Positions 16,519 through 35,899 of a stretch of DNA of 64,000 bases are shown here, piece by piece. Origin of the DNA: Phreatobacter aquaticus (GTDB lineage Bacteria > Pseudomonadota > Alphaproteobacteria > Rhizobiales > Phreatobacteraceae); assembly GCF_005160265.1 (NCBI RefSeq), contig NZ_CP039865.1, positions 248,001 through 312,000 of the forward strand. Direction: 5' to 3'. The notes beneath the pieces are model-generated. The model was not told the origin of the DNA and searched no databases. It saw only the letters and a list, made by a program, of their open reading frames with translations. Both the position numbers and the translations under genes were made by a program. Each line of letters opens with the position of its first letter. Position 1 is the stretch's first letter.

Positions 16519-16541
16519 GCGGCGGCTCAGGAGGCCGCCGC
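16519..16541. terminator. Hairpin between convergent GMC and M20 genes
   Basis: GCGGCGGC (16519-16526) pairs with GCCGCCGC (16534-16541) around a seven-base loop. It sits just after the GMC stop and overlaps the last codons of the convergent M20 gene. The symmetric position suits a bidirectional terminator, although no T-tract follows. Confidence 0.45.
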
Positions 16542-17870
16542 GCGCACACCGCAGAAGCGGACGATGCTCTGGGCGACGACCTGCGCTGTCTCGATCACCG
16601 ACGAGATCAGTACATATTCGTCGGGGCCGTGCTGGGCGGCGCCGGTCGGCCCATAGACTACGCCGGGGATCCCCTCGGCCGCGTAGTGCGCAGCATCGGT
16701 GACACCGAGGCTGCCGACGATCTCCGGCGCCCGGCCCCGTGCCTCGACACTCGCCTTCACCGCCTGCACCAGGCCGTGCTCCAGCGGCGTGTTCACCGGC
16801 GGGAAATGGAGATCGGCCAATTCCCAGCGGATTTCCGGCGGATGGTCGCGGAGCCAAGGGTCAGCTGCAGCGAACCGCGCCACCCATTCCTCGAACTCGC
16901 GGCGGATGTCGGCCGAGGTCTCGTTCGGCAGGAACTTCATGTCGAAGTCGATGACGCAGAGATCCGGCACCATGGCGGGATTGGACAGGATGGTCGGCAG
17001 GCCATCAGGCCCCATGCCGCATCCGGACACCATCACGCCGGGGCTGATCGTGTTCATGCCGGCCGGCATGCCGGGGAAGCTCTTGGCGATGCCCCACTGG
17101 GTCTCGAGCTCGCGCAGCGAGGCGAGCAGCCGCGCGCCGAGTTCGATGGCGTTGACGCTCTTCACCGGCACGCTGGCGGCGGCTTCCGAGGGATAGATCG
17201 ACGCAAAGCGTCGCGCCGAATGACCGCTCAAGCCGCGCAATGTCACCCGCACCCATTCGAGGCCGCCCGCCCAGGGACGGATCGCACCGGCGCTGGGCTC
17301 GCAGATCAGCACACCTGCCGGCGCGGGTCTGAGCGCTGCCGCCGCCATCGCGCCGAAGCCGCCGGCCTCCTCGTCGACGACAGCGTGGAACTCCAGCCGC
17401 CCGTCGAGTGTCAGCCCCAGCCTGGAGATCGCCCGGCAGGCGACGAGGGCCGCCGCAAGACCCGCTTTCATGTCGCAGGAACCGCGCCCATACAGCTTGT
17501 CGCCGCGCACTTCGGCGCCAAAGGGATCGACGGTCCAGCCGGCAAGATCGCCCTGCGGCACCACGTCGACATGGCCGCAGACGGCGAGGCTCCGCGCGTC
17601 CGATCCCGCCCACCGGCCGATCAGGTTGGGACGGTCGGGCAGCGGGAAGCTGCGCTCCGTCATGAAGCCCAGGCCCTGCAGCTCGGCCTCGATGATGTCC
17701 TGCACCTCGGGCTCCCGATTCCACTGGGGATCGCGCAGGAACTTCGGATTGACCGACGGCATCTGCACCAGCCGGCTGAGCAGGTCGACGAGGTGGTCCC
17801 GGTCGGCGGCAATGGCCTTGTCCAGGGCGTCCAGAAGGGCGGGCGAAGGCGCAGCGGGGGCGTTGGTCAC
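16527..17870 (-). CDS. M20-family metallopeptidase/deacylase (ArgE/DapE type)
   Basis: Cytoplasmic di-zinc hydrolase of 447 residues. Metal-binding and catalytic motifs are intact: CGHVDVVPQGD (His, catalytic Asp), YGRGSCDMKAG (bridging Asp), VDEEAGGFG (catalytic Glu and ligand Glu), and the C-terminal GPTGAAQHGPDEY with the last His. A dimerisation domain is inserted between. It removes an N-acyl group from, or cleaves, a small amide such as an acyl amino acid or dipeptide. The start is a GTG at 17870 because no internal ATG precedes the fold. It diverges from the binding protein at 18005 and shares with it a region carrying an eight-base inverted repeat. Confidence 0.92.
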   Translation of the reverse strand: MTNAPAAPSPALLDALDKAIAADRDHLVDLLSRLVQMPSVNPKFLRDPQWNREPEVQDIIEAELQGLGFMTERSFPLPDRPNLIGRWAGSDARSLAVCGHVDVVPQGDLAGWTVDPFGAEVRGDKLYGRGSCDMKAGLAAALVACRAISRLGLTLDGRLEFHAVVDEEAGGFGAMAAAALRPAPAGVLICEPSAGAIRPWAGGLEWVRVTLRGLSGHSARRFASIYPSEAAASVPVKSVNAIELGARLLASLRELETQWGIAKSFPGMPAGMNTISPGVMVSGCGMGPDGLPTILSNPAMVPDLCVIDFDMKFLPNETSADIRREFEEWVARFAAADPWLRDHPPEIRWELADLHFPPVNTPLEHGLVQAVKASVEARGRAPEIVGSLGVTDAAHYAAEGIPGVVYGPTGAAQHGPDEYVLISSVIETAQVVAQSIVRFCGVRAAAS

Positions 17871-17900
17871 GGGCAGGTCCGGTATGTTTCTTTCATTACA

Positions 17901-17930
17901 TTATTGCAAATTCTGAAGTCCCTGCAATAA
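17901..17930. promoter_or_regulatory. Candidate operator: 8-bp inverted repeat in an AT-rich divergent promoter region
   Basis: TTATTGCA (17901-17908) and TGCAATAA (17923-17930) are exact inverted half-sites with centres 22 bases apart, i.e. two helical turns on one DNA face. They lie in a strikingly AT-rich patch between the M20 gene (minus) and the binding-protein operon (plus) that also encodes an RpiR-type regulator. That regulator is the natural candidate to bind here (inference). Confidence 0.6.
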
Positions 17931-18004
17931 ATATGACATCGAGACCGAGGGCTTTCGTGCTCATGATCGGTCAGGATCGACCAGTCATTTGCGGGATGGA
18001 CACG

Positions 18005-19588
18005 ATGGATCGCAGGCGCTTCGTTATTTCCTCATCGGCGGGCCTCGCAGCCCTCTCGGCCCCCCGCCTGTCGCTCGCCGCAGGCGGCGGCACGTTGAAA
18101 TTCGTGCCCCATGCCGACCTGACGGTCATCGACCCGACCTGGAGCAATGCCTACGTCACTCGGAACCATGGCTACATGGTCTTCGACACACTGTTCGGTC
18201 AGGATTCCAAGTTCGGCTACCAGCCGCAGATGCTGGAAAGCGCGGTCACCGACCAGGACGGCAAGCGCTGGACGCTGAAACTGCGCGACGGCCTGAAGTT
18301 CCATGACGGCTCGCCGGTACTCGCGCGCGATTGCGTGGCGAGCCTTCGCCGCTGGGCCGGCCGCGACGACCTGGGCAAGGCCCTGTTCGCCGTGACCGAC
18401 GAGCTCTCGGCATCCGATGACGCAACCATCGTGTTCCGGTTGAAGCGCCCCTACCCGCTCCTGCCCATGGCACTCGGCAAGACCGGCTTGATGATGGCCG
18501 CCATCATGCCCGAGCGGATCGCCAAGGCCGACCCCGACAAGCAGATCACCGAGATGGTCGGCAGCGGCCCCTACCGCTTCAAGGCCGACGAACGCATTGC
18601 TGGCGACCGCGCCGTCTACGAGCGCTTCGCCGACTACAAGCCGCGCAGCTCGGGCAATCCGGATGGCACGGCCGGTCCGAAGGTCGCCCATTTCGACCGC
18701 GTCGAATGGCGGATCATCCCCGATGCCTCGACGGCTGGCGGCGCGCTGCGTACCGGCGAGATCGACTGGTGGGAGCTGCCGAGCGCCGACATGCTGCCGC
18801 TGCTGCGCAATGCCCGCGGCGTGAAGGTCGAGGAGCTCGATCCGACCGGCTACATGGTGTCGCTGCGCGTCAACCACCTGCAGGGACCGACCGCCAATCC
18901 GGCGATCCGCCGCCTCATGCTCCAGGCCATTGTCCAGCGCGACATCGCCATGGGCATGGCGGGTACAGACCCCAAGCTGTGGCGCGACAAGGTCGGCTAT
19001 TTCTGTCCCGAGACCGAATTTGCCAACGATGCCGGGATGGCTGCGCTCACCAGCCCCCGCGATCCCGCCGCCATCAAGCGCCAGCTCGCCGAGGCCGGCT
19101 ATAAGGGCGAGAAGATCGTTCTGATGGACCCGGGCGATCTCCAGGTGAATTCGGTCGGCACTGCGGTCGTGGCCGATACGCTGAAGCGCTCCGGCTTCAA
19201 TATCGAGAGCATCACCATGGACTGGGGCACGCTGCTGCAGCGCCGGAACAAGAAGGACCCGATCGCCGACGGCGGCTGGAGCATCTATCTCGTGCAGAAT
19301 TCCGGCGCCGACCTGCTGAACCCCGCCGTTCACGGCCAGCTTCGCGGCAATGGCAGCCTGATCAACGGCTGGTGCACCAGCCCCGGCATCGAGGCCCAGC
19401 GCGACGCCTGGATGAATGCCACGACCGCGGCTGATCAGATCGCGGCTGCCCGCAAGCTGCAGGAACAGGCCTTCGTCGACGTGCCCTATATCCCGCTCGG
19501 CCAGGTCGCGCAGTTGACCGCGCTGCGTGCCGATCTCGGCGGCATGGTCAAGGGCATGCCGGTGTTCTGGAACATGAAGCGCGGTTGA
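18005..19588 (+). CDS. ABC transporter solute-binding protein, family 5, Tat-type signal
   Basis: Periplasmic binding protein of about 527 residues. ATG 18005 is preceded by GGGATGG and starts MDRRRFVISSSAGLAALSAP, a twin-arginine-like signal; an ATG nine bases earlier is the alternative. Mature landmarks: VIDPTWSNAYVTRNHGY, MVFDTLFGQDS, LRDGLKFHDGSPVLARDC, GSGPYRFKADERI and the ANPAIRRLMLQAIVQRDIA region. It is a paralogue of the protein at 13383. No permease or ATPase genes adjoin it, so it may dock to the Dpp-type importer encoded at 32026-35899 or to one elsewhere (inference). It heads an operon with RpiR regulator and three enzymes. Confidence 0.9.
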   Translation: MDRRRFVISSSAGLAALSAPRLSLAAGGGTLKFVPHADLTVIDPTWSNAYVTRNHGYMVFDTLFGQDSKFGYQPQMLESAVTDQDGKRWTLKLRDGLKFHDGSPVLARDCVASLRRWAGRDDLGKALFAVTDELSASDDATIVFRLKRPYPLLPMALGKTGLMMAAIMPERIAKADPDKQITEMVGSGPYRFKADERIAGDRAVYERFADYKPRSSGNPDGTAGPKVAHFDRVEWRIIPDASTAGGALRTGEIDWWELPSADMLPLLRNARGVKVEELDPTGYMVSLRVNHLQGPTANPAIRRLMLQAIVQRDIAMGMAGTDPKLWRDKVGYFCPETEFANDAGMAALTSPRDPAAIKRQLAEAGYKGEKIVLMDPGDLQVNSVGTAVVADTLKRSGFNIESITMDWGTLLQRRNKKDPIADGGWSIYLVQNSGADLLNPAVHGQLRGNGSLINGWCTSPGIEAQRDAWMNATTAADQIAAARKLQEQAFVDVPYIPLGQVAQLTALRADLGGMVKGMPVFWNMKRG

Positions 19589-19607
19589 CAGCCGGAATCG
19601 GATTCCG

Positions 19608-20504
19608 ATGACGATCCGCGACACGCTGACCGACCCGGCGCTCAGGCTCACGCCTGCCGAGCGCCGGCTGGCGCGCGCCATCCTTGCCAATTATCCGGTC
19701 GCCGGCCTCGGCACGGTCGCGGCGCTGGCATCGCGGGCGGAGGTCAGCGATCCCACCGTGGTGCGCTTCGCGGCGAAGCTCGGCTTCCCGAGTTTCGTCG
19801 CCTTCCAGGAAACGCTGCTCGGCGAGGTCGAGCAGCGGCTTCACTCGCCCCTGATGATGATGGAGGTCCGGCGCGGTGTGCCCGAGGGCAGCCATCCCCT
19901 CGTCGCCTATGCCCGCGCCGTCGCCGACCGGCTTGCCGCCGACAATGATGGCCTCACCCCCGGCGAATTCGACCGCGCCATCGAGATGCTGGCCACAGCC
20001 CGCGGCCGCATCCTGCTGCTTGGCGGCCGGTTCAGCGGCTTTCTTGCCGGCATCCTGGAGGCGCATCTCCACCAGCTGCGCCCCTCGACGATCCTGCTTG
20101 CCGGTCCCGGAGCCGATCTGGTCGACCGCCTCGCCGACATTTCCAGCCGCGACACGCTGATCGTCTTCGACTATCGCCGCTACCAGACCGATATCGTGGC
20201 CTTCGCGGCCCAGGCCAAGGCCCGCGGCGCCCAGATGATCCTGTTCACCGACCACTGGGGATCACCGATCGCCGACCAGGCGGACGTCGTGCTGGGAGCG
20301 GCGGTCGAGGCGCCCTCGCTGTTCGACACGATGGTGCCGGCGCTCGCCCAGGTCGAGGCGCTGGCCACCCGGCTGGCCGAACGGCTGGGGAAACCGGCCC
20401 TCCAGCGCATCGAGACCATCGAGCGCATCCGATCCGAGAATTCCATTACCGTCGGCCCCCAGCGGACGACAGGACGAGGGCCTCATGCAGCCGATGACAC
20501 GTGA
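19608..20504 (+). CDS. RpiR-family transcriptional regulator (HTH plus SIS domain)
   Basis: Regulator of 298 residues. The N-terminal RpiR helix-turn-helix contains LASRAEVSDPTVVRFAAKLG, residues about 42-62. The C-terminal SIS domain (ILLLGGRFSGFLAGILE...) normally binds a phosphosugar, though in amino-acid-linked members the ligand differs. It begins 19 bases after the binding-protein stop and overlaps the next gene by 20 bases, so it is part of the operon it likely controls. The inverted repeat at 17901-17930 upstream of the operon is the best visible target. Confidence 0.9.
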   Translation: MTIRDTLTDPALRLTPAERRLARAILANYPVAGLGTVAALASRAEVSDPTVVRFAAKLGFPSFVAFQETLLGEVEQRLHSPLMMMEVRRGVPEGSHPLVAYARAVADRLAADNDGLTPGEFDRAIEMLATARGRILLLGGRFSGFLAGILEAHLHQLRPSTILLAGPGADLVDRLADISSRDTLIVFDYRRYQTDIVAFAAQAKARGAQMILFTDHWGSPIADQADVVLGAAVEAPSLFDTMVPALAQVEALATRLAERLGKPALQRIETIERIRSENSITVGPQRTTGRGPHAADDT

Positions 20505-21123
20505 CGCAGCCTTCGTGCGCGACGAGACGGCCATCCTCTTCGTTGATGTCCAGAAGGCCTTCGCGCTGCCGGGCCGCGATCCCGCTCATCCCGAGCGCGA
20601 CGCCGACCATCCCTTCTACCGGCGGCTGTCATCAACCGTGATCCCGAACCAGATGAGGCTGCTGGAGGCCGCGCGCGCCTCGGGGCTGAACGTCGTCCAT
20701 ACCGTGATCCGGGCGCTGACCCATGATGGCCGCGACCGCTCGCTCGACCACAAGCTCTCCGACATCCTGATCGCGAAGGATGATCCGGGTGGCGACGTGA
20801 TCGATGAACTGGCTCCCCGCGGCAATGAGATCGTCCTGCCGAAATCCTCGTCCGGCGTCTTCAACTCCACCAATATCGACTACATCCTGCGCAATCTCGG
20901 CGTCCGCTTTCTCATTGTCGCCGGCATCGTCACCGACCAGTGCGTCGACATGGCGGTGCGCGACGCGGCCGACCGCGGCTATTTCGTCTCGCTGCCGCAT
21001 GATGCTTGCGCCGCCTACACCGACGAGCGCCACCAGGCCGCACTGGCCGTGCTCAAGGGCTATAGCTGGCTGACCGATACGGACACGCTGGTCGCCCGCA
21101 TCGAAGCTCTCGCGGAGGCATGA
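20485..21123 (+). CDS. Isochorismatase-family cysteine hydrolase
   Basis: Cysteine hydrolase of 212 residues with the full catalytic triad: D21 in ILFVDVQKAF, K120 in LPKSSSGVF and C153 in IVTDQCVDMA, including the cis-peptide-forming IVT segment before the Cys. Family members hydrolyse amides or ureido groups (nicotinamide, N-carbamoylsarcosine, biuret, ureidoacrylate, N-malonylurea). The start at 20485 is supported by ACGAGGG just upstream and overlaps the RpiR gene by 20 bases. The stop overlaps the next gene by ATGA. Tight linkage to a glutamine-synthetase-like ligase and an N-formylglutamate-type amidohydrolase indicates an amide-degrading pathway (inference). Confidence 0.92.
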   Translation: MQPMTRDAAFVRDETAILFVDVQKAFALPGRDPAHPERDADHPFYRRLSSTVIPNQMRLLEAARASGLNVVHTVIRALTHDGRDRSLDHKLSDILIAKDDPGGDVIDELAPRGNEIVLPKSSSGVFNSTNIDYILRNLGVRFLIVAGIVTDQCVDMAVRDAADRGYFVSLPHDACAAYTDERHQAALAVLKGYSWLTDTDTLVARIEALAEA

Positions 21124-22451
21124 TCGTGATGCCTGTTCAGCCAACACCCATGACCACCCTGGTCACAACCGACTATTCCGGCATCACCCGCGGGCGGTCG
21201 ATCCTGACCTCGGACTTCGAGGCCGATTCCGGCTGCTCCGTTGGCTGGGTTCCCGCCAACCAGTCGCTGACGCCCTTCGACACGATCGATCCGAACAGCA
21301 TCTGGGGCTCCGGCGGCGACCTGCGCCTCAAGCCCGACCGGGACGCCCGCTACACGACCCTCATGCCCGGCGCCACGACGCCGCTGGACATGGTGATGAG
21401 CGATATCGTCGAACTCGACGGCACGCCATGGCTTGCCTGCCCGAGGTCATTCCTCAAGCAGGCGCTGTCTGACCTGCACAAGGAGACCGGCCTGACGCTG
21501 GCCGGCGCCTTCGAGCACGAATTCACCGTTCTGGGCGAGCCGTTCACGCCAGCACCTGCCTTCTCGGTCCAGGCCTTCCGGCGGGCCGATCCGCTGGGGC
21601 CAGTCGTGATGGCGGCACTGGCCGAGGCGGGGCTGAAGGCGGACACGTTCATCGCGGAATATGGCCGCGACCAGTTCGAGGTGACGGTCGGGCCGGCGCG
21701 CGGCGTTGCCATCGCCGATCAGGCGGTGGCGCTGCGCGAGATCATCCGCGAAGCCGCCAGGCTCCGCGGCATCCGCACGAGCTTCGCGCCGAAGATCGAG
21801 CCGGACACGGTCGGCAATGGCGTCCATGTCCACATGAGCTTCGTCGATCAGACCGGCGCCAATGCGCTGTTCGATTCCGCAGCTCCCGGAAGGCTCTCCA
21901 AGGTCGGCGCGGCCTTCGCTGCCGGCATCGTCCGTCACATGCCGGCGCTGGTCGCTGTCACCGCGCCAAGCGTCTCGTCCTATATGCGCCTCAAGCCGCA
22001 CAATTGGAGTGCCAGCTACACCTGGCTGGGCGACCAGGACCGCGAGGCGAGCCTGCGCATCTGCCCGACGCCAACACTCGGCGGAAAGTCGCCGGCGAAG
22101 AGCTTCAACATCGAGTTCCGCGCCTGCGACGCCACCGCCTCGCCGCATCTGGCGCTGGGCATGCTGGTGAGAGCCGGCCTTGAGGGCATTCGTGCGCGAC
22201 TGCCACTGCCGCCGATCTTCTCGGGCGATCCCGAAGCGCTTGAAGCCGCCGAACGCGAGAAGCTCGGCCTTCGGCGTCTGCCGCAAAGCCTGCCGGCCGC
22301 CCTCGATTGCCTGGAGGCCGACCCGCTCGCCCGCACATTCCTTGCGCCCAAGGCGCTGACCACCTATTGCGGCATGAAGCGCACCGAGATCGACGTCGTC
22401 GCTGGCCTGAGCCCAGCCGAGCTCTGCGCGCGCTATGCGGGGATCTATTGA
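21120..22451 (+). CDS. Glutamine-synthetase-like gamma-glutamyl ligase
   Basis: Glutamine-synthetase-fold enzyme of 443 residues. The catalytic domain shows AFEHEFTVLGE (metal Glu residues), YGRDQFEVTVGPARG, GNGVHVHMSF (the HVHMS nucleotide/metal motif), YMRLKPHNWSASYTWLGDQDREASLRIC and FNIEFRACDATASPHLALG with its ligand Glu. The N-terminal beta-grasp domain is divergent, as in PuuA, IpuC or GlnA3-type ligases that join glutamate to an amine rather than ammonia. Adenylylation-type regulation cannot be judged. It overlaps the isochorismatase gene (ATGA) and the amidohydrolase gene (TGATG). Its acceptor amine is unknown. Confidence 0.9.
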   Translation: MIVMPVQPTPMTTLVTTDYSGITRGRSILTSDFEADSGCSVGWVPANQSLTPFDTIDPNSIWGSGGDLRLKPDRDARYTTLMPGATTPLDMVMSDIVELDGTPWLACPRSFLKQALSDLHKETGLTLAGAFEHEFTVLGEPFTPAPAFSVQAFRRADPLGPVVMAALAEAGLKADTFIAEYGRDQFEVTVGPARGVAIADQAVALREIIREAARLRGIRTSFAPKIEPDTVGNGVHVHMSFVDQTGANALFDSAAPGRLSKVGAAFAAGIVRHMPALVAVTAPSVSSYMRLKPHNWSASYTWLGDQDREASLRICPTPTLGGKSPAKSFNIEFRACDATASPHLALGMLVRAGLEGIRARLPLPPIFSGDPEALEAAEREKLGLRRLPQSLPAALDCLEADPLARTFLAPKALTTYCGMKRTEIDVVAGLSPAELCARYAGIY

Positions 22452-23200
22452 TGGCAGCGAACACGGCCATGGCGCTTCCCCCGGCCGATCCGCCTGTGCT
22501 GACCGTGCTGCGCCCGCAGGGGCGATCCCCGATCGTGCTGGTCTGCGAACACGCCTCAAACCATATCCCTGCCGAATATGGCGACCTCGGCCTGCCCGAA
22601 GCCGAGCTGCAACGGCACATCGCCTGGGATATCGGCGCCGAGGGCCTGACCCGCAGGCTGTCCGAACTGCTCGACGCACCGGCTTTCATCGCGGGATGGT
22701 CGCGCCTGCTGATCGACGGCAATAGGCCGCCGGGGGCGCCGAGCAGCATCCCCGAAATCAGCGAGGCGACCGTTGTTCCCGGCAATGCCGGACTGTCGGC
22801 AGCCGAGGCCGCGGCACGCGCCGAGCGCTTCTTCAGACCGTTCCACGACGGCCTCGCCCGTCATCTTGATCAGCGGATGGCAGCCGGCCGCGAGACGCGT
22901 GTCGTCGGCGTCCACTCGTTCACACCGGTCTTCCTCGGTGTCCCGCGCCGCTGGCACGCGGGCATCCTGTTCCAGCACGCGACCGAATGGGGCCACCGCG
23001 CCGTCGCGGCGCTCGATCGGCCCGGCCGCCCGGTCGTCGCGAACGAACCGTACCGGATCGAGGAAGACACCGACTATCTCGTGCCGATCCAGGCGGAGAA
23101 GCGCGGGCTTCAGGCGATCCTTCTGGAGATCCGCCAGGATCTGCTGGCAACGCCAAAGCACCAGGACGAATGGGCGCGCGAGCTCGCGCCGATCCTGTAG
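22451..23200 (+). CDS. N-formylglutamate amidohydrolase-family enzyme (HutG-like)
   Basis: Metal-dependent amidohydrolase of 249 residues. Family landmarks are VCEHASNHIP near residue 32, HIAWDIGAEGLTRRL, the WSRLLIDGNRP segment and VVGVHSFTPVF with a metal-ligand His. In histidine degradation the homologue cleaves N-formylglutamate, but none of hutH, hutU or hutI is here. Placement directly after a gamma-glutamyl ligase suggests cleavage of an N-acyl or N-formyl glutamate derivative made from the imported compound (inference). The start at 22451 overlaps the ligase stop by one base (TGATG). It converges on a LysR gene 16 bases later. Confidence 0.9.
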   Translation: MAANTAMALPPADPPVLTVLRPQGRSPIVLVCEHASNHIPAEYGDLGLPEAELQRHIAWDIGAEGLTRRLSELLDAPAFIAGWSRLLIDGNRPPGAPSSIPEISEATVVPGNAGLSAAEAAARAERFFRPFHDGLARHLDQRMAAGRETRVVGVHSFTPVFLGVPRRWHAGILFQHATEWGHRAVAALDRPGRPVVANEPYRIEEDTDYLVPIQAEKRGLQAILLEIRQDLLATPKHQDEWARELAPIL

Positions 23201-24288: not shown

Positions 24289-25899
24289 TCACTCCGCCAT
24301 GTAGGCCTTGGAGAAGGTGCCCTCGAAACCTTCGGCATTCACTGTGTGGCCCTGGGCCACCACATTGTGGATGGTTTGCCAGGTTGCCATGGCCAGCGGC
24401 AGGTTCGGCACCTCGATCTTGACGATCTCCTGGACCCGCATCCAGGCCGCAATGCGCTTGTCCTTGTCGGGCTCGACACTGGCCTGTTCAAGCAGCCCAT
24501 CCACCTCGGCATTGGCATAATGGGTGCCGTTGGAGAACGGCACGCCGCGCAGGTAGTTCTTCGACCAGTAGAGGCGCTGCACGCCAACATTGGGGTCGAA
24601 CAGATTGCTGATCGAGGCGAGATGGATGCCGAATTCGCGGTCGGTATAGACGCGCTTCACCAGCGTTCCCATGTCCTGGCTGCGCAGATCGATGCCGATG
24701 CCGGCGCGCGCCAGCGACGAGCGCAGGAATTCCGCCACCGGCCGCTGATCCTCGCCGGTATAGTCGAGGTTGATGGTGAAGCGCATGGCATTGCCGCGGC
24801 GCGCATGGCCGGCTTCGTCGAGCAGCTTCTGCGCGGCGCCGACATTGAACGGATAGGGCGTCGGCCGGGCGTCGTGGAACTCCTTGTGATAGGGCACGAC
24901 CGGGCTCGCCGAGGGTACGGCATTCCCATAGAAGACGATCCGGCAGAGCGCCGCCCGGTCCACGCAATGGGCAATCGCCTGGCGGATCTTCAGATCCTTG
25001 AGGTAGGGATTGTCGAGGTTGAACTCGGCGATGATGATGTTCGGCGGATCATAGGCATAGCCCTTGGGCTCAAACCGGATCTGCGGCAGCGCCTTCAGCC
25101 GCTCCACGTCGCGATAGGGCACCGGCGTGCGATAGCCGACATGGACGCTGCCGGTCTCGAAGGCGATCGTGCGCGCCGCCGGATCGAGGATGAAGCGGAC
25201 GATCAGCTTGTCGAGATAGGCCGCGTCCTTGTCCCAATAGTTTGGATTGCGCTCCCAGATGGCATGGCTGCCGCGCACCCATTCCTTGAAGACATAGGGG
25301 CCGGTACCGATCGGCGCGGTATTGTTCGGATGGGAAAGAGGATCGGCCTCGCCATAGACGTGCTTCGGCACGATCGCCGTCTCCATGGCCGCGAGCGCGG
25401 TCAACAGGAACGGCGTCGGCTTCGACAGTTTCAGGACGACCGTGTGAGGATCGATCGCCTCCGCCGAGGTCATGAACTGGAAGGTCGAGCGGCCGCGCGG
25501 ATGCAGCCGCTTCACCGTCTGCAACGAAAACACCACGTCGTCGGCGGTGAAATCCTTGCCATCATGCCACTTCACGCCCTGGCGCAGCTTGAACGTGTAG
25601 GTCAACCCGTCCGGCGCGACACTCCATTCGGTCGCAAGCGACGGCAGCGGTTTCAGGTTGTCGTCATATTGCAGCAGCCCTTCTGTCGAGCGCGCGGTGA
25701 GCGCGATGCTGCTCGAATTGACGAAGGAGAGCAGCGCGGGCGGCTCCGACTGCATGACCATGATCATGGTCCCGCCCTTCTTCGGCGCTGCGGCCTGGGC
25801 GGCGGCATCGAAGGAGCGTCCGGCCAAGCCCACGGCGGGAAGGGATGCGAGTGCGCCGACGACCGCACGGCGCGTCAGGTTCGGATTGTGCTTCGGCAA
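24289..25899 (-). CDS. ABC transporter solute-binding protein, family 5 (peptide type), TTG start
   Basis: Periplasmic binding protein of 536 residues. The start is a TTG at 25899 with AGGAGCAGG just before it; no ATG or GTG precedes the signal. The signal has a twin arginine (LTRRAVVGALASLPAVG) and ends near DAAAQA. Mature landmarks include SLATEWSVAPDGLTYTFKL, RQGVKWHDGKDFTADDVVFS, GTGPYVFKEWVRGS and LKDLKIRQAIAHCVDRAAL. It is the last gene of the hydantoinase operon, 41 bases after the second hyuB-like gene, and most likely serves the Dpp-type importer encoded on the other side of the divergent promoter region (32026-35899). Confidence 0.9.
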   Translation of the reverse strand: MPKHNPNLTRRAVVGALASLPAVGLAGRSFDAAAQAAAPKKGGTMIMVMQSEPPALLSFVNSSSIALTARSTEGLLQYDDNLKPLPSLATEWSVAPDGLTYTFKLRQGVKWHDGKDFTADDVVFSLQTVKRLHPRGRSTFQFMTSAEAIDPHTVVLKLSKPTPFLLTALAAMETAIVPKHVYGEADPLSHPNNTAPIGTGPYVFKEWVRGSHAIWERNPNYWDKDAAYLDKLIVRFILDPAARTIAFETGSVHVGYRTPVPYRDVERLKALPQIRFEPKGYAYDPPNIIIAEFNLDNPYLKDLKIRQAIAHCVDRAALCRIVFYGNAVPSASPVVPYHKEFHDARPTPYPFNVGAAQKLLDEAGHARRGNAMRFTINLDYTGEDQRPVAEFLRSSLARAGIGIDLRSQDMGTLVKRVYTDREFGIHLASISNLFDPNVGVQRLYWSKNYLRGVPFSNGTHYANAEVDGLLEQASVEPDKDKRIAAWMRVQEIVKIEVPNLPLAMATWQTIHNVVAQGHTVNAEGFEGTFSKAYMAE

Positions 25900-25940
25900 G
25901 GTCCTGCTCCTGTTCGATGGGTCCGGCTTTGGCCTGACGG

Positions 25941-27599
25941 TCAGGCCGATGGGTCAAATCGATAGATGTCGCGCGCCGCCTCAGGCGAAATGCGTCCCTC
26001 GGCAAGGTCGGCCTCGACCAGCGACCGCAAACGCTGCGCCGGATCGCCCAGCCCGCCGCCGCCCGGCGTCATGACGATCAACCGGTCGCCGGGCACGATG
26101 TCGTAGCGCGGCAGCGGCGGAATATCCGGGTTGGAGCGAAGACCGACGCGGCCGAGCGCACCATCGTGGCCACCGGCATAGCCGCGCGCGGGAAAGGTCT
26201 GCCGCCCCAGCCGGGCCTGGTACATGAAGGGCTGGTCGATGCTGTTTTCGACTTCGATGACCTGGCCAAGGCCGCCACGCGTCGCACCCGCGCCGCCGCT
26301 GTCGGGCCGCAGTTCCTTGCGCCAGACGATCACCGTCGACATGCCCTCGAAGATCTCGATCGGGCCGCCGCGCACGCCGCTCGGGTAGCCCGTGGCCGAC
26401 AAGCCGTCGCGACCGGGCAACGCGCCCATGCCGCCATTGGTCAGCACGTTGACCGCATAGGTCTGGTCAATCTTCGCCGGGCTGGTGCGCGGTCCCCGCG
26501 CATTGATGCGCCAGAGGACCGAGGTGTTCTCGGCCGGCACGCGATCCGGCACGGCCTGGCGCAGGCAGCCGAAGACAAGGTCCGGCATCATCATGCCGAT
26601 GGTGGCGCGGGCAAAGACGGCCGCGGGCTTCAGCGCGTTGACGATGCAGCCGGGCGGCGCCGAAATTGTCAGCGGTTCCAGCGAGCCCGCATTGTTGGGA
26701 ATACCGTGCGAGACGATGCAGCCGAGCCCGAAGCTCGTATAGGCATGGGTGTAGCAGAGCGGCACGTTGACATTGTACTTCACCATCTCGGCCGAGCCGG
26801 TGAAGTCGACATGGATGCCGCTGTCCGACACCGTCAGCGCGGCCGCCAGCCTGATCGGCTCGCTCGCCGCATCCACCAGCATGGAATGGTGCCAGGTGCC
26901 GCGCGGCAGCTTGCGGATCTCCGCCAGCACAGCCTCGCGCGAAGTGTCGATGATGTAGTCCGCCAGCTGGTCGAGCTCGTCGATCGCGAACTCGTCCATC
27001 ATCTCGAGCAGGCGCTCGCAGCCGACATCGTTGCAGGAGACCAGCGAATAGACGTCGCCGACCGTCTCCACCGGCTCGCGCGTGTTGGCGCGGATCATCT
27101 CGAACAGCGTCTCGTTGACAACGCCCTGATCCACGATCTTGAGGATCGGGATATAGAGCCCCTCCATGAACACGTCGGTCGTGTCCATGAACGGCACCGC
27201 GCCGCCAATGTCGAAGACGTGGCAATTGCAGGCGACGATGCCGATCAGCCGGCCATCGCGGAAGCAGGGCGTGGTCAGCGAGATGTCGTTGGTGTGCCCC
27301 GTGCCCATCCACGGGTCGTTGTGCACGAACACATCGCCCGGCTTCATCACGTCCGCCGGATAGCGATCCAGCACATGGCCGACCGCCAGCGCCATGGAAT
27401 TGATATGGCCCGGCGTGCCGGTGACCGCCCGCGCCAGCATCCGCCCCTGCGCATCGAAGACGCCTGCGGCGAGATCGCCGGATTCGCGCACGATGGTGGA
27501 AAAGGCCGTCCGCTGCAGCGACTGGGCCTGTTCCTCGACCACCGCGATCAGGCGGTTCCACATGATCTGCAGATCGATCAGGCCGACGGTTCCGGTCAT
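25941..27599 (-). CDS. hyuB: Hydantoinase B/oxoprolinase-family subunit, second copy
   Basis: HyuB-type subunit of 552 residues (ATG 27599, with GAGAGG ahead; a longer frame starts at 27656). HyuA/HyuB pairs hydrolyse cyclic amides such as hydantoins or 5-oxoproline using ATP, or carboxylate ketones. The N-terminus WNRLIAVVEEQAQSLQRTAF, then VRESGDLAAGVFD, HINSMALAVGHVL and DVFVHNDPWMGTGHTND are all family signatures; the C-terminus ends in the TPGGGGLGDP motif. It is a tandem paralogue of the gene immediately upstream, with long near-identical runs in the N-terminal half and more divergence in the presumed specificity segment DIGGAVPFMDTTD. Confidence 0.93.
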   Translation of the reverse strand: MTGTVGLIDLQIMWNRLIAVVEEQAQSLQRTAFSTIVRESGDLAAGVFDAQGRMLARAVTGTPGHINSMALAVGHVLDRYPADVMKPGDVFVHNDPWMGTGHTNDISLTTPCFRDGRLIGIVACNCHVFDIGGAVPFMDTTDVFMEGLYIPILKIVDQGVVNETLFEMIRANTREPVETVGDVYSLVSCNDVGCERLLEMMDEFAIDELDQLADYIIDTSREAVLAEIRKLPRGTWHHSMLVDAASEPIRLAAALTVSDSGIHVDFTGSAEMVKYNVNVPLCYTHAYTSFGLGCIVSHGIPNNAGSLEPLTISAPPGCIVNALKPAAVFARATIGMMMPDLVFGCLRQAVPDRVPAENTSVLWRINARGPRTSPAKIDQTYAVNVLTNGGMGALPGRDGLSATGYPSGVRGGPIEIFEGMSTVIVWRKELRPDSGGAGATRGGLGQVIEVENSIDQPFMYQARLGRQTFPARGYAGGHDGALGRVGLRSNPDIPPLPRYDIVPGDRLIVMTPGGGGLGDPAQRLRSLVEADLAEGRISPEAARDIYRFDPSA

Positions 27600-27636
27600 G
27601 ACAGGCCTCTCGGACGGATTGCGGGGAAAAGCACGG

Positions 27637-29310
27637 TCATTCGGCCGCCTGGGCAACGTTCAGGCCGTAGAGGCTTCGCGCCGCGTCCTGCGAGATCAGC
27701 TCATTGGCGAGATCAGCCTCGACCGCCGCGCGATCGCGGGCTGTGGGATCACCTAGCCCGCCGCCGCCCGGCGACTGGATGATGAGGCGCTCGCCCGGCT
27801 GTACCGGGAACCGCCCCTTGCCGGAGAGCGCCCTGCCCGTCGACAGCGCGACGACGCCCCTGGCGCCTTCCAGGCCACCGTCGAAACCCTTGGCCGGATG
27901 GATGATCCGCTCGTAGGACGATGCCAGCTCGAACATTTCGGGAATGCCGTTCTCGATCTCGATGTCCTGGCCGAGACCGCCGCGCTGACGGCCGGCACCG
28001 CCGCTGTCCTGCCGGTACTGCTTGCGCCAGACGATGACGGTGGACATGGACTCGAAGATCTCGACCGGGCCGCCGCGCACACCGCTCGGAAAGCCAGTGG
28101 CCGACAGGCCGTCGCGGACGGGGAGCGCACCCATGCCGCCGGTGGTGACGATGCCGACGACGAAACTGTCATTGTGGCGGGCCGGGCTGACACGCGGGCC
28201 GCTGACATTGATGCCCCACAGAACGCCGGCGCCCTCCGCCGGCACGCGGTCCGGGATTGCCTGGCGCAGGCAGCCGAAGACGAGGTCCGGCAGCATCAGG
28301 CCGACCAGATGGCGGGCAACGACCGCTGCGGGCTTCAGCGCATTGACCACGGTGCCGGGCGGCGCGGACACCGTGCGCGGCTCCAGCGAGCCCGCATTGT
28401 TCGGGATGTCGCGGGCGACGATGCAGCCGAGCGCATAGGACGTGTAGGCGATCGTGTAGCAGAACGGCACGTTGAAGTTCTGCTTCACCATGCCCGCCGA
28501 TCCCGCATAGTCGACATGGATGCCGTCGTCGGAAATGGTCAGCTTTGCCTTCAACTCCAGCGGGCTATCGAAACCGTCGAGTGTCAGACTGCTCGACCAG
28601 GAGCCGCGCGGCAGCGCCCGGATATTGGCGAGCACCGCCGCTCGCGAGGCGTCGATGATGTGATCGGCGACGGGCGCAAGATCGTCGATGCCGAACTCGC
28701 CCATCGTTTCGACCAGGCGCTCGCAGCCGACATCGTTGCAGGCGATGAGCGAATAGACGTCGCCCTCGGTCTCGATCGGCAGGCGGGTGTTGGCGCGGAT
28801 CAGTTCCATCAGCGTGTCGTTGACGACGCCACCCTCGACGATCTTCAGGATCGGCAGGTAGAGCCCCTCCATGAACACATCGATGGAGCCGGACATGCGC
28901 GGCACGCCGCCGATATCCATCAGATGGCTGTTGCAGGCGAAGATCGCGACGAGCTTGCCATCGCGGAAACAGGGCGTGGTGACGGAGAAGTCGTTGGTGT
29001 GGCCGGTACCCATCCAGGGATCGTTGTGGATGAACACATCGCCGGGTTTCATCACATCGGCCGGATAGCGGTCCAGCACATGGCCCACCGCCAGCGCCAT
29101 GGAATTGATGTGGCCGGGCGTGCCTGTCACCGCCTGGGCGAGCATGCGGCCCCGGACATCGAAGACACCGGCGGCGAGATCGCCGGATTCACGCACGATG
29201 GTGGAGAAGGCCGTGCGCTGCAGGGTCTGCGCCTGCTCTTCCACCACGGCGATCAGCCGGTTCCAGAGGATCTGCTTGTCGATCAGTCCAAGGGGGGCCT
29301 GCTGGATCAT
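27637..29310 (-). CDS. hyuB: Hydantoinase B/oxoprolinase-family subunit, first copy
   Basis: HyuB-type subunit of 557 residues: WNRLIAVVEEQAQTLQRTAF, DVFIHNDPWMGTGHTNDFS, NAGSLEPRTVSAPPGTVVNA, and C-terminal SPGGGGLGDPTARD. It overlaps the hyuA stop by ATGA and is 37 bases ahead of its paralogue, giving order A-B1-B2. The region corresponding to DIGGVPRMSGSID differs from the paralogue, hinting that the two B subunits give different substrate range with one shared A subunit, or that one copy is a recent duplicate drifting (inference). Confidence 0.94.
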   Translation of the reverse strand: MIQQAPLGLIDKQILWNRLIAVVEEQAQTLQRTAFSTIVRESGDLAAGVFDVRGRMLAQAVTGTPGHINSMALAVGHVLDRYPADVMKPGDVFIHNDPWMGTGHTNDFSVTTPCFRDGKLVAIFACNSHLMDIGGVPRMSGSIDVFMEGLYLPILKIVEGGVVNDTLMELIRANTRLPIETEGDVYSLIACNDVGCERLVETMGEFGIDDLAPVADHIIDASRAAVLANIRALPRGSWSSSLTLDGFDSPLELKAKLTISDDGIHVDYAGSAGMVKQNFNVPFCYTIAYTSYALGCIVARDIPNNAGSLEPRTVSAPPGTVVNALKPAAVVARHLVGLMLPDLVFGCLRQAIPDRVPAEGAGVLWGINVSGPRVSPARHNDSFVVGIVTTGGMGALPVRDGLSATGFPSGVRGGPVEIFESMSTVIVWRKQYRQDSGGAGRQRGGLGQDIEIENGIPEMFELASSYERIIHPAKGFDGGLEGARGVVALSTGRALSGKGRFPVQPGERLIIQSPGGGGLGDPTARDRAAVEADLANELISQDAARSLYGLNVAQAAE

Positions 29311-31436: not shown

Positions 31437-32025
31437 GATTGGGATCCCTCAGCCGTTGACACTGGCACCAGGCCGCAAGGCTGCCGACAACCCGTCGGAC
31501 GCCCGATCGACCACTCAGAGAACCGAAAGTATTCCACGCGGGATCAGCGACCGATATGGCGAGAATGCGCAGGGACTATTGCATTCATCACTGTAATCAA
31601 ACGGCGGGATCAGGGCCTATCTGCCAATCTTCTGATCAATCGGCATGGAATGCATCACATCCTGCTTATTTTTGAAGCGGGCAGCCGGTTGACCTGCACG
31701 GGAGCCCGCCTTGATGATGCCCAAGGACTGCAATCCGACCCCCTGAATACTTATCAATCATCAGGGATCGGATCAAGTTTTCTGACAGACGACACGACAC
31801 GACCCAAGGCTTCGGACTGCAACGGCCAGGGAAGCGAAACATGATCAGGCGAATATCCTTGCGCTATACGGTCGGCCGCCGGGCAACACCAGCGCCGGTC
31901 CAGCCGCTGAATTCTGCTGCAACGCAGCATGACTGTCGCCGCAGCGGCTCCACCAGCGCCAAGACGCAAGCATGCTGCCGCTCCGCCGCGGACAGCTTGC
32001 TCGTCTGGCCAAGAGGAGCTTGCGC
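31437..32025. promoter_or_regulatory. Long divergent intergenic region between hydantoinase and ABC-importer operons
   Basis: This 589-base stretch is more AT-rich than its flanks and holds no frame with convincing coding character. A six-base dyad CCCTGA/TCAGGG (31741-31746 and 31761-31766) with a 14-base AT-rich spacer lies near its centre. The region presumably carries promoters for both operons and regulator sites. Its length would also accommodate a long leader or small RNA, but I see no clear structure proving one. Confidence 0.5.
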
Positions 32026-33012
32026 ATGAGCGCACTCGGGCGGACTGCCAAGACCCTGAAGCGCACGGCGATCCAGGCGGTGCCGACCATTGCCGGCATC
32101 ATCATCCTGAACTTCCTGTTCCTGAACCTGATGCCGGGCGATGCCGCCGACGCCATTGCGGGGCGCGCCGGATCGGCCACCACCGAGACGATGGAGGCGC
32201 TGCGCAAGTCGCTCGGCCTCGACCAGTCGCTGCTGACCCGGCTTCTGGTCTATCTCGGCAATCTCGCGACCTTCAATCTCGGCCAGTCCGCCAATTACAA
32301 TGTCGCCGTCTCGACGCTGATCGCCGAGCGCCTGCCCAACACCATGCTGCTGATGCTGACGGCGCTGACACTGGCGCTCACCTTCGGCATCGGCTTCGGC
32401 TGGATCATGGCGGTCTTTGCCGGCAAGTGGCCCGACCGGCTGCTGACCGCCTTCGTGCTGCTGTTCTATTCGGCGCCGGCCTTCTGGCTCGGCCTCATGA
32501 CTATTGTGATGTTCTCGGCCTGGCTCGGCTGGCTGCCGAGCAGCGGCAACATGACGCTCGGCCGCAATCTCCAGGGTTTCGCCGGCTTCAAGGATCGCCT
32601 GGTTCACCTCATCCTGCCGGCGACGGCCATGGCAATCAATTTCGTCGCGATCTATGCCCGCCTGACCCGCGCCGCCATGCTCGACGTGCTGCGCCAGGAT
32701 TTCATGCGCACCGCCGCCGCCAAGGGGCTGCATCCCCTGGTGCTGCAGTTCCGCCATGCCATGCGCAATGCGCTGATCCCGGTGACGACGGTTGCCGGCA
32801 TGCATCTGGCCAATCTGCTAGGCGGGGCCGTGGTGATCGAGACTGTGTTCGGCTGGCCGGGCATCGGGCGCCTCACGCTCGATGCGGTGATGGCGCGCGA
32901 CTACAACGTCCTGCTCGGCATCATGCTGCTCTCATCGATCATCGTGATCCTCGTCAACATGGCGATCGAGATCCTGCTGTCCTGGCTCGATCCGCGCATC
33001 CAGGCGAGGTGA
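32026..33012 (+). CDS. ABC importer permease, DppB/OppB type
   Basis: Inner membrane permease of 328 residues with about six helices. ATG 32026 is preceded by AGGAG seven bases away; a frame beginning at 31972 lacks this. The N-terminal region VPTIAGIIILNFLFLNLMPGD is the usual first helix, and the EAA loop region is RAAMLDVLRQDFMRTAAAKG. It forms a heterodimer with the next gene product. The importer is complete downstream (two permeases, two ATPases) while its binding protein lies on the other strand in the hydantoinase operon. Confidence 0.94.
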   Translation: MSALGRTAKTLKRTAIQAVPTIAGIIILNFLFLNLMPGDAADAIAGRAGSATTETMEALRKSLGLDQSLLTRLLVYLGNLATFNLGQSANYNVAVSTLIAERLPNTMLLMLTALTLALTFGIGFGWIMAVFAGKWPDRLLTAFVLLFYSAPAFWLGLMTIVMFSAWLGWLPSSGNMTLGRNLQGFAGFKDRLVHLILPATAMAINFVAIYARLTRAAMLDVLRQDFMRTAAAKGLHPLVLQFRHAMRNALIPVTTVAGMHLANLLGGAVVIETVFGWPGIGRLTLDAVMARDYNVLLGIMLLSSIIVILVNMAIEILLSWLDPRIQAR

Positions 33013-33016
33013 CAGC

Positions 33017-33985
33017 ATGGATGGACCGACGCTTCAGGAGATCAAGGCAGGCGCGGTGACCGCGGCCGTGCCCCCTATATCGACGGCCGCCGCCATCGCA
33101 GCACATCCAGCCCTTGCCGGTTCGGCGAGACCCTCGTCGCGGCCCTCCGGCTTCCGCTCGCGCTTCGTCGCCTATCTGCGCGATCCGTTCTTCGCCGCCG
33201 CCTGCGCCATCCTGCTGACCATGGCGCTGCTGGCCCTGTCTGCCGGTTGGCTGTTTCCCAACGACCCCATGGACATGGTGGCCACGCCGCTGCTCTGGCC
33301 GGGCCAGGACATGGACTATCCGCTTGGAACTGACGCGCTCGGACGCGATCTCCTGTCGGGCGTCATCCACGGCTCGCGGGCGTCCCTGATGGTCGGCCTG
33401 TCGGCTGCCTCCATCGGCCTGCTGATCGGCGCGACCATCGGCGCGCTCGCCGGCTATTTCGGCGGCTTTGTCGACAACGCGCTGATGCGCCTTGCCGAAC
33501 TGTTCCAGACCGTGCCGTCCATCCTGCTGGTCATCGCCATCCTGTCGATCGGCGACCCCTCCCTGCCGCTGATCGCCTTCGCCATCGGGCTGTCGTCCTG
33601 GCCGATGGTGGCGCGGCTCGTCCGCTCGCAATTCCTGACATTGCGCGAGTCCGATTTCGTGCTGGCGGCCCGCAGCCTCGGCTATGGCACCGGCCGCATC
33701 ATCATCAGCGAAATCCTGCCCAATGCGCTGCCGACCGTCATCGTCGCCACCTCGGTGATGGTCGCCAACGGCATCCTGGCCGAGGCCGGCCTGTCGTTCC
33801 TCGGACTTGGCGACAACAATCTGGTGAGCTGGGGCAGCATGGTCGGCAATGGCCGCCAGGTGCTGCGCTCGGAATGGTTCGTCTCCGCCATCCCCGGCAT
33901 CGCCATCATCCTCACCGTCCTGTCGTTCAACATCATGGGCGACCGGTTGAACGACATCCTCAATCCCAGGGCGGAACCGGCATGA
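33017..33985 (+). CDS. ABC importer permease, DppC/OppC type
   Basis: Permease of 322 residues. A 50-residue cytoplasmic N-terminal tail with Ala/Pro content precedes the first helix. The OppC signature PLGTDALGRDLLSGVIHGSR is at about 105-125, and the EAA loop is RESDFVLAARSLGYGTGRII. GCGAGGT precedes ATG 33017, four bases after the DppB stop. It overlaps the next ATPase gene by ATGA. Confidence 0.94.
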   Translation: MDGPTLQEIKAGAVTAAVPPISTAAAIAAHPALAGSARPSSRPSGFRSRFVAYLRDPFFAAACAILLTMALLALSAGWLFPNDPMDMVATPLLWPGQDMDYPLGTDALGRDLLSGVIHGSRASLMVGLSAASIGLLIGATIGALAGYFGGFVDNALMRLAELFQTVPSILLVIAILSIGDPSLPLIAFAIGLSSWPMVARLVRSQFLTLRESDFVLAARSLGYGTGRIIISEILPNALPTVIVATSVMVANGILAEAGLSFLGLGDNNLVSWGSMVGNGRQVLRSEWFVSAIPGIAIILTVLSFNIMGDRLNDILNPRAEPA

Positions 33986-34956
33986 GCGTCCACAAGCCCC
34001 ATCCGGTTCTGGAAATCCTCGATCTGTCGGTCGGCTTCGGCGACAAGCCGGTGGTGCGCGGCATCAGCCTGGCCATCCGCAACGGCGAGACGCTGGCGCT
34101 CGTCGGCGAGAGCGGCTGCGGCAAGTCGATGACCGCCTTCTCGATCTTGCGGCTCCTGCCGGCCAATGCCGCGATCCTTGGGGGACAGGTGGTGTTTGAC
34201 GGCATCGATCTCGCCTCCGTCGAGCCTCGGCGACTGCGCGACATTCGCGGCAAGGGCATATCGCTGATCCTTCAGGAGCCGATGACCTCGCTCAATCCGG
34301 TCCTGTCGATCGGCACGCAGATCCGCGAAGTGATCGTCCGCCACGAGAACCTGTCGAAGGCGGCTGCCAAGCAGCGCGTGATCGACCTGCTGGATCTCGT
34401 CGGCATCGCCGAGCCCCAGCGGCGCTATGACGAATATCCGCACAATTTCTCCGGCGGCATGCGCCAGCGGGTGATGATCGCCATGGCGGTGGCCTGCAAT
34501 CCGCAATTGCTGATCGCAGACGAACCCACCACGGCGCTCGACGTGACGATCCAGGCGCAGGTGATGGATCTGCTCGATCGGCTGCGCAAGCAGCTCTCCA
34601 TGGCCATGCTGCTGATCACCCACGATCTCGGCGCAGTCGCCCAATGGGCCGATCGTGTCGCGGTAATGTATGCCGGGCGCATCGTCGAACAGGCACCCGT
34701 CACCGAGTTCTTTGCAGGCCCCCGCCACCCCTATTCGGTCGGCCTGCTCGCCTCCTCGATCTCGGAAGAGGAGGAATGGCACTATACCAACCATCGCCTG
34801 GCTGAAATTCCCGGCTCGATCGCGTCCTCCGCCAATGTGACCGGCTGTGCCTTCGCGCCGCGCTGCCCCAGGCGCATTGCCGCCTGCGACACGGTTCCGG
34901 CCTTGACCGGGGTCGCGCCGCAATGGTCGGCAGCCTGCGTCCACGTGGCGGCATGA
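33982..34956 (+). CDS. ABC importer ATPase, DppD/OppD type
   Basis: ATP-binding subunit of 324 residues. Walker A GESGCGKS, signature FSGGMRQR, Walker [13 protein letters not shown] and the switch His in LLITHD are intact. The C-terminal oligopeptide-transporter extension contains the Cys cluster [15 protein letters not shown] found in this subfamily, which in some members binds an iron-sulfur cluster. ATG 33982 overlaps the DppC stop. It powers import together with the next gene product. Confidence 0.95.
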
Positions 34957-34966
34957 GGAACCGGTC

Positions 34967-35899
34967 ATGACCTTGCTCAGCGTCGAGGACCTGCACACCA
35001 CCTACAAGACCGGCAGCCGGACCGTTCACGCGGTCGATGGCGTCTCACTCGAGGTCGGCCCGCGCGAAACGGTCGGCTTGGTCGGTGAATCCGGCTGCGG
35101 CAAGTCGACGCTCGGCAAGACCATCATGCGCCTGCTCGATCCGAGCGAGGGCAGCATCACGCTCGACGGCACCGATATCGGCCGCCTCGACGACCGCAGC
35201 ATGTTGCCGCACCGGCGCAAGATGCAGATGGTGTTCCAGGACCCCTTCGCATCGCTCAATCCGCGCCAGACCGTGTTCAGGCTCCTGGACACGCCGCTCA
35301 AGGTCCACGGCATGGCGGACCCCGCCGAGCGTCGTCGCCGCGTCGTCGACATTGCCGGCCGGGTCGGCCTCGCCCCCGATGCGCTGGAGCGTTATCCTCA
35401 CGAATTCTCGGGCGGCCAGCGTCAGCGTATCGGCATTGCCCGCGCGCTCATCCTCAATCCGCAACTGGTCGTCTGCGACGAACCGGTCTCGGCGCTCGAC
35501 CTGTCGATCCAGGCGCAGATCCTCAACCTGCTGGTCGATCTGAAGCGCGATTTCGGCCTCGCCTACCTGTTCATCTCCCACGACCTTTCGGTGGTGCGCT
35601 ATTTCGTCGATCGGGTGCTCGTCATGTATCTCGGCCGGATCGTCGAAAGTGCCGATCACGTTTCGCTCTGGCGCGATCCGAAGCATCCCTATACCCGCGC
35701 CTTGCTGGCGGCTGTGCCCTCACGCGATCCGACCAGGCGCGCCTCGGCCGCGCTGAAGGGCGAGATTTCGATGGCGGTCCAGCCCGGCGGCTGCCGCTTC
35801 CGTGCCCGCTGCCCGCTCGCCATGGACCGATGCGCCAGCGAGGACCCACCCCTGCGGCGACTTTCCGACAAACAGATGGTGGCCTGTCATCTGGCCTGA
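34967..35899 (+). CDS. ABC importer ATPase, DppF/OppF type
   Basis: Second ATPase, 310 residues. Walker [11 protein letters not shown] loop MVFQDPFASLNPRQT, signature FSGGQRQR, Walker B LVVCDEPVSALD and ISHDLSVV are present. The C-terminal extension has CRFRARCPLAMDRC. It follows the DppD gene by 10 bases and is followed after 61 bases by a C-S lyase/aminotransferase gene on the same strand. Confidence 0.95.
   Translation: MTLLSVEDLHTTYKTGSRTVHAVDGVSLEVGPRETVGLVGESGCGKSTLGKTIMRLLDPSEGSITLDGTDIGRLDDRSMLPHRRKMQMVFQDPFASLNPRQTVFRLLDTPLKVHGMADPAERRRRVVDIAGRVGLAPDALERYPHEFSGGQRQRIGIARALILNPQLVVCDEPVSALDLSIQAQILNLLVDLKRDFGLAYLFISHDLSVVRYFVDRVLVMYLGRIVESADHVSLWRDPKHPYTRALLAAVPSRDPTRRASAALKGEISMAVQPGGCRFRARCPLAMDRCASEDPPLRRLSDKQMVACHLA

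Follow-up and report, generated by a model that had tools for sequence, protein, structure and literature searches.

The operon considered here lies in a 64,000-nucleotide stretch of the Phreatobacter aquaticus genome (contig NZ_CP039865.1, positions 248,001 to 312,000; hereafter the window, with positions counted from its first letter), in which five genes at 18005-23200 form one tight operon on the + strand, as a sequence-only reading of this DNA had proposed, and all five products have strong Pfam matches. The first gene (18005..19588) encodes a family-5 solute-binding protein (SBP5; SBP_bac_5 PF00496, 3e-57) with a twin-arginine-type signal (MDRRRF) and is separated by 19 nt from that of an RpiR-family regulator (19608..20504; Pfam HTH_6 and SIS). 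All later junctions overlap: the gene for an isochorismatase-type cysteine hydrolase (ISO; 20485..21123; PF00857, 2.7e-35), a likely amide or ureide hydrolase, starts 20 nt before the RpiR gene ends and meets that of a PA5508-type, glutamine-synthetase-like (GS-like) putative gamma-glutamyl ligase (21120..22451; Gln-synt_C and N_2, 1e-72) at an ATGA, while the ligase gene runs at a TGATG into that of an N-formylglutamate-amidohydrolase-family (FGase) protein (22451..23200; PF05013, 1.9e-42) that we propose to be a gamma-glutamyl hydrolase. A divergent gene on the - strand (16527..17870), omitted from the sequence-only reading, encodes an M20 ArgE/DapE-type deacylase (PF01546) and belongs to the same block; it is kept beside the operon in relatives (70-77% identity in three congeners, 63% in Roseomonas mucosa), and the entire M20-SBP-RpiR-ISO-GS-FGase block is kept in 3 of 11 other genomes of the genus at 54-77% identity. 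Between the M20 and SBP genes, an inverted-repeat-like element (17891..17939; TTTCATTACATTATTGC-N-TGCAATRAATATGACAT) aligns across the window and the three congeners and is a candidate RpiR operator or promoter; weak matches to its half-site, with 1-2 mismatches, lie 5' of some distant RpiR genes, and a promoter scan gave no signal above chance.

The closest solved relative of the window ligase is P. aeruginosa PA5508 (PauA7; PDB 4HPP), which it matches over its full length (1e-125, 423 bits), the second-best PDB match reaching only 9e-35. Comparison of 95 cassette ligases (see below) revealed that the residues for metal, ATP and glutamate (E132, E134, E180, E187, H236, H238, R290, R308, R313 and E332) are 98-100% conserved, whereas the column of the flap Glu of GlnA (the E. 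coli E327 position) is occupied by Trp in 95/95 sequences. The ammonium-site Asp of glutamine synthetase (Asp50) corresponds to V42 in 4HPP (PMC6478659), and by this mapping the position is Val in the window ligase and Val, Thr, Ala, Leu or Pro, never Asp, among the cassette ligases. The window ligase scores 155 bits against a cut-off of 429 with the GlnA model TIGR00653, is likewise far below the cut-off of the GSIII model and attains 272 bits against a cut-off of 650 with the gamma-glutamylputrescine synthetase equivalog NF045547. Because the core residues are kept, the ammonium site is lost and the closest solved relative is PA5508, residue logic and homology assign the window protein as a predicted gamma-glutamyl ligase for an organic amine. 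PA5508, for which structure and in vitro activity are available, reportedly favours bulky amines above polyamines (Ladner 2012, as cited in PMC6478659); we found no pathway assigned to it in the literature searched.

Of the two hydrolases, ISO carries the catalytic triad D21-K120-C153 recognized in the sequence-only reading, and we found this triad to be 100% conserved in 80 ISO homologues. The nearest folds to its AlphaFold2 (AF2) model (pLDDT 93.5) are TrtA, BiuH and RutB, and therefore ISO probably attacks the C-N bond of an amide or ureide, as predicted from the model. For the FGase model (pLDDT 95.5), the closest fold is that of the uncharacterised Atu2144 (2odf; template-modelling (TM) score 0.91), and the HutG-type 2q7s, annotated as an N-formylglutamate amidohydrolase, is much more distant (TM score 0.69). 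The window FGase scores well above the PF05013 cut-off. The cassette FGases keep the metal-site residues H35, D61, H156 and E227, but their invariant H57, N113, D209 and H215 differ from the other FGase of the genome. This second family member (L062:4724-5623, at about 192.7-193.6 kb of C1, outside the window) outscores the window FGase strongly on PF05013, has no visible hut context and is far from the urocanase gene. The absence of hut genes near the operon, pointed out in the sequence-only reading, holds, the sole urocanase match in the genome lying ~3.3 Mb away (C1:3589009), and a histidine (hut) role of the cassette FGase was rejected on genomic context. A PF05013 enzyme, SCO1615, has been put forward, without proof, as the one that hydrolyses gamma-glutamylglycine in the last step of an ethanolamine route (PMC6529630, PMC9397018).

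The four-gene order, whose conservation elsewhere the sequence-only reading had suggested checking, is far from unique to this genome. We compared 95 loci chosen by the ligase alone (37 genome contigs, 14 annotated plasmid stretches, 43 whole-genome loci and the window) with 20 control stretches of 20 kb from the same genomes, the loci being phylogenetically related and the counts hence not independent. ISO is present in 82, FGase in 81, both in 76 and RpiR in 71 of the 95, and each occurs in 0/20 controls; among the 43 whole-genome loci alone, ISO is found in 34 and FGase in 33. The commonest order, RpiR-ISO-GS-FGase on a single strand, recurs across Alphaproteobacteria and Gammaproteobacteria, and the cassette is widespread in Proteobacteria. 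Four loci placed in Gammaproteobacteria by resemblance to PA5508 (L109, L111, L112 and L113) have this order with an APC permease gene next in line, and the ligase of L109 aligns closely with 4HPP over its full length (710 bits). On a Terrarubrum plasmid, RpiR and the GS-like ligase are fused in one 753-aa protein (L042:11056-13317), which supports functional coupling of regulator and ligase.

Beside many of the cassettes lies a gene annotated as an 'aspartate aminotransferase family protein', which PDB matches identify as an alpha-amino-epsilon-caprolactam (ACL) or amino-acid-amide racemase. The Shinella copy aligns end-to-end with the A. obae ACL racemase 2zuk (812 bits) and matches the amino acid amide racemase 6gio with 469 bits, and the best matches of the most divergent copy tested are still racemases of this kind. 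Of the 95 loci, 35 carry a racemase that shares 45% identity or more with the Shinella copy; it lies at most 130 bp from a cassette or transporter gene in all 35 and directly adjoins a core gene in 27. Among 385 genomes drawn across the class, the racemase is encoded by 11 and the ligase by 27, with 9 encoding both (hypergeometric P = 5e-10 with genomes treated as independent). The PDB matches led us to reject the plasmid-record annotation of this class III neighbour as a transaminase, and the 28-29% 'ACLR' matches in L059 and L060, which belong to a different omega-aminotransferase (AptA), were left out of the 35. In the literature searched, ACL racemase is described as a biocatalyst, and we found no natural pathway or native role for it. 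Its association with the cassette hints that the substrate is an alpha-amino-acid amide or an amino-lactam, and this link, new here, is most likely the part that will surprise a specialist.

Transporters are exchanged freely among loci. Branched-chain-type (HAAT) components occur in 56 loci, a Pot-type binding protein in 3 and an APC permease in the gammaproteobacterial loci, while among the loci examined SBP5 is confined to this genus and Roseomonas mucosa (L044). Use of a family-5 transporter is a local variation, and the tie between the compound and a family-5 binding protein drawn in the sequence-only reading is not borne out. The orphan binding protein of the operon may use the DppBCDF-type permease and ATPases encoded further along the + strand (31972..35899; BPD_transp_1 twice, ABC_tran and oligo_HPY twice), shared with two other SBP5 of the window. 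This complete DppBCDF set is part of a region (24289-35899) in which it diverges from an SBP5, two hydantoinase B genes and a hydantoinase A gene on the - strand; a link of the cassette to these hydantoinases (HyuA/HyuB, 25941-31436) was dropped, as the adjacency is not conserved.

Other neighbours recur in subsets of the loci. Ornithine cyclodeaminase is near the cassette in 8 (L109:13463-14662, L111, L106, L108, L012, L015, L016 and L036), spanning three lineages and absent from all 20 controls, with NF005762 above cut-off in both copies tested, and a saccharopine-dehydrogenase-family gene flanks the cassette, on differing sides, in all three cassette-bearing congeners (L059:7040-8149, L060 and L061:15534-16745); both neighbours hint at ornithine- or lysine-type compounds. 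A conserved amidohydrolase adjoins the ligase in 8 loci (L131:8069-9205 on the - strand, L130, L127, L124, L133, L114, L140 and L032) and resembles, by reading rather than by profile search, the N-terminal half of fungal FluG, in which an amidohydrolase is joined to a PA5508-like ligase (PMC6478659). Kinase and class III phospho-lyase-like genes (PRK06148 type), sometimes fused, are near the cassette in 13 loci (L004, L024, L025, L027, L028, L030, L044, L051, L110, L117, L119, L126 and L135), and in one congener a DncV-like nucleotidyltransferase and a Cap15-type receptor (CBASS-like; L061:2485-7898) lie just past the FGase end.

The reactions, their order, the substrate and the binding of RpiR that we infer from these observations would be as follows. 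An amine-bearing amide would be taken up, here by the SBP5 ATP-binding-cassette system, and the GS-like ligase would attach glutamate, through the gamma-carboxyl, to the amino group of this compound at the expense of ATP. ISO would then hydrolyse the carboxamide (or ureido) group on the conjugate, yielding ammonia and a carboxylate, and the FGase-type Zn hydrolase would cleave the resulting gamma-glutamyl-amino acid into glutamate and the free amino acid. With an alpha-carboxylate generated by ISO, FGase would receive an N-acyl-amino-acid substrate of the type recognized in N-formylglutamate, which fits the family of this enzyme. RpiR would sense a pathway compound and control the divergent promoters, and the racemase, in relatives, would supply the other enantiomer. 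In its generic form (ligase, amidase, glutamyl hydrolase) such a route is probable; the full explanation, a gamma-glutamylation catabolic route with an amide or lactam substrate, is our best one and falls only a little short of an even chance. Alpha-amino-acid amides or alpha-amino lactams appear the most likely substrates because these are the very compounds on which the racemase found with the cassette in relatives acts, and we put them forward tentatively. It is possible, if doubtful, that the cassette is the native, widespread and previously undescribed pathway of the ACL/amino-acid-amide racemase, with racemisation followed by gamma-glutamylation, amide hydrolysis by ISO and release by FGase.

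Several points weigh against this interpretation. The ISO fold is nearest to ureide hydrolases and not to known amino-acid amidases, and the ATP cost is hard to justify for simple amide hydrolysis unless toxicity or reactivity of the free compound calls for it. At E <= 1e-90 no ACL racemase is present in the window genome, and the gammaproteobacterial cassette copies also lack one, such that the racemase link rests on relatives. One or both hydrolases are not nearby in 19/95 loci, and the correlation among ISO, GS and FGase distances (r 0.69-0.83) in part reflects shared organism history.

The first of these points leads to a closely related alternative, in which ligase, hydrolase and FGase run the same cycle on a ureido (carbamoyl) amine and ISO takes off the carbamoyl group, yielding CO2 and ammonia in the manner of its closest structural homologues. 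In sequence as well as in fold, ISO is nearest to triuret hydrolase, biuret hydrolase and RutB, BiuH is its top NCBIfam match, albeit below cut-off, and a Zn-dependent carbamoylase-family gene is found near the cassette in L053; yet ISO is only 25-29% identical to these enzymes and the association with ACL racemase favours alpha-amino amides or lactams, making a ureido substrate unlikely. We ascribe a similarly low probability to a general role in the detoxification or use of bulky or aromatic amines, with ISO and FGase trimming varied conjugates outside any single pathway: the in vitro preference of PA5508 cited above and the variation of transporters and non-core partner genes between loci are in its favour, but the close conservation of two particular hydrolases together with a racemase speaks for one defined chemistry. 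That FGase and ISO act separately on N-formyl or N-carbamoyl compounds, the ligase merely recapturing glutamate with no shared gamma-glutamyl intermediate, would agree with the family names of the hydrolases and with the loss of each gene from some loci, and is nevertheless quite improbable given the co-conservation across classes, the overlapping reading frames, the zero occurrence in control stretches and the greater proximity of FGase to Atu2144 than to HutG-type 2q7s. An ordinary or ammonium-assimilating glutamine synthetase, an outcome named in the sequence-only reading as refuting it, was rejected as scarcely credible despite the Gln-synt_C domain match, as the flap Glu is Trp throughout, the GlnA and GSIII scores are far below cut-off and the nearest solved relative, PA5508, lacks the ammonium-site Asp.

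The gamma-glutamylation route with an amide or lactam substrate can be compared with several known systems. The Puu/Pau polyamine route (PuuA-PuuB-PuuC-PuuD) has the same logic of glutamylating, transforming and deglutamylating, but its ligase is only 26.6% identical and the cassette has no counterpart of its oxidase, its dehydrogenase or the class I amidotransferase PuuD; proteins with Pfam matches in the surroundings of the window operon include no PuuB-type oxidase, PuuC-type dehydrogenase or PuuD hydrolase, nor do such genes recur as a set in the 95 loci. The ethanolamine route (S. coelicolor SCO1611-SCO1615 and a prediction for Chromohalobacter salexigens) shares a GS-like ligase and a PF05013 hydrolase proposed to release glutamate, a step likewise unproven there (PMC6529630, PMC9397018), but involves alcohol and aldehyde dehydrogenases and has no isochorismatase-type amidase or ACL racemase. 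With neither oxidase nor dehydrogenase partners and with weak identity to PuuA, a polyamine or ethanolamine route was rejected for the cassette. ISO has the fold and Asp-Lys-Cys triad of TrtA, BiuH and RutB, with equivalog scores far below cut-off (BiuH, its best NCBIfam match, 90 bits versus 370; RutB 76 versus 378), and would bring a reaction of the isochorismatase type into gamma-glutamylation catabolism. The class III 'aminotransferase' that neighbours 35 related cassettes is one of the ACL/amino-acid-amide racemases (A. obae 2zuk/3dxv; 6gio), and many proteobacterial annotations as 'N-formylglutamate amidohydrolase', 'glutamine synthetase' or 'aspartate aminotransferase' are probably misleading.

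The earlier claim of an undescribed route for an amide or amine is a plausible inference once freed of its family-5 tie, as no paper in the literature searched gives a complete route for the combined gene set or a pathway for the racemase gene clusters, and a search for RB-TnSeq data likewise yielded no paper on such a pathway. That its partners are foreign to known gamma-glutamylation was overstated, both on account of SCO1615 and as the same operon is apparently PA5506-PA5509 of P. aeruginosa. The cassette most likely represents a new form of catabolism by gamma-glutamylation in an operon that was functionally undescribed though already sequenced. Joint changes in the expression of PA5506-PA5509 have been published (PMC6246594), and PA5510 is given as a permease; the RpiR-ISO-GS-FGase-APC order of L109 and L111-L113 matches PA5506-PA5510, with the identities of PA5506, PA5507 and PA5509 deduced from gene order in these relatives. 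Unlike the window operon, this version has an APC permease and neither M20 nor SBP5, and PA5508 itself is the nearest solved ligase. Linking PA5508 and ACL racemase to one conserved gene set provides a testable physiological role for each.

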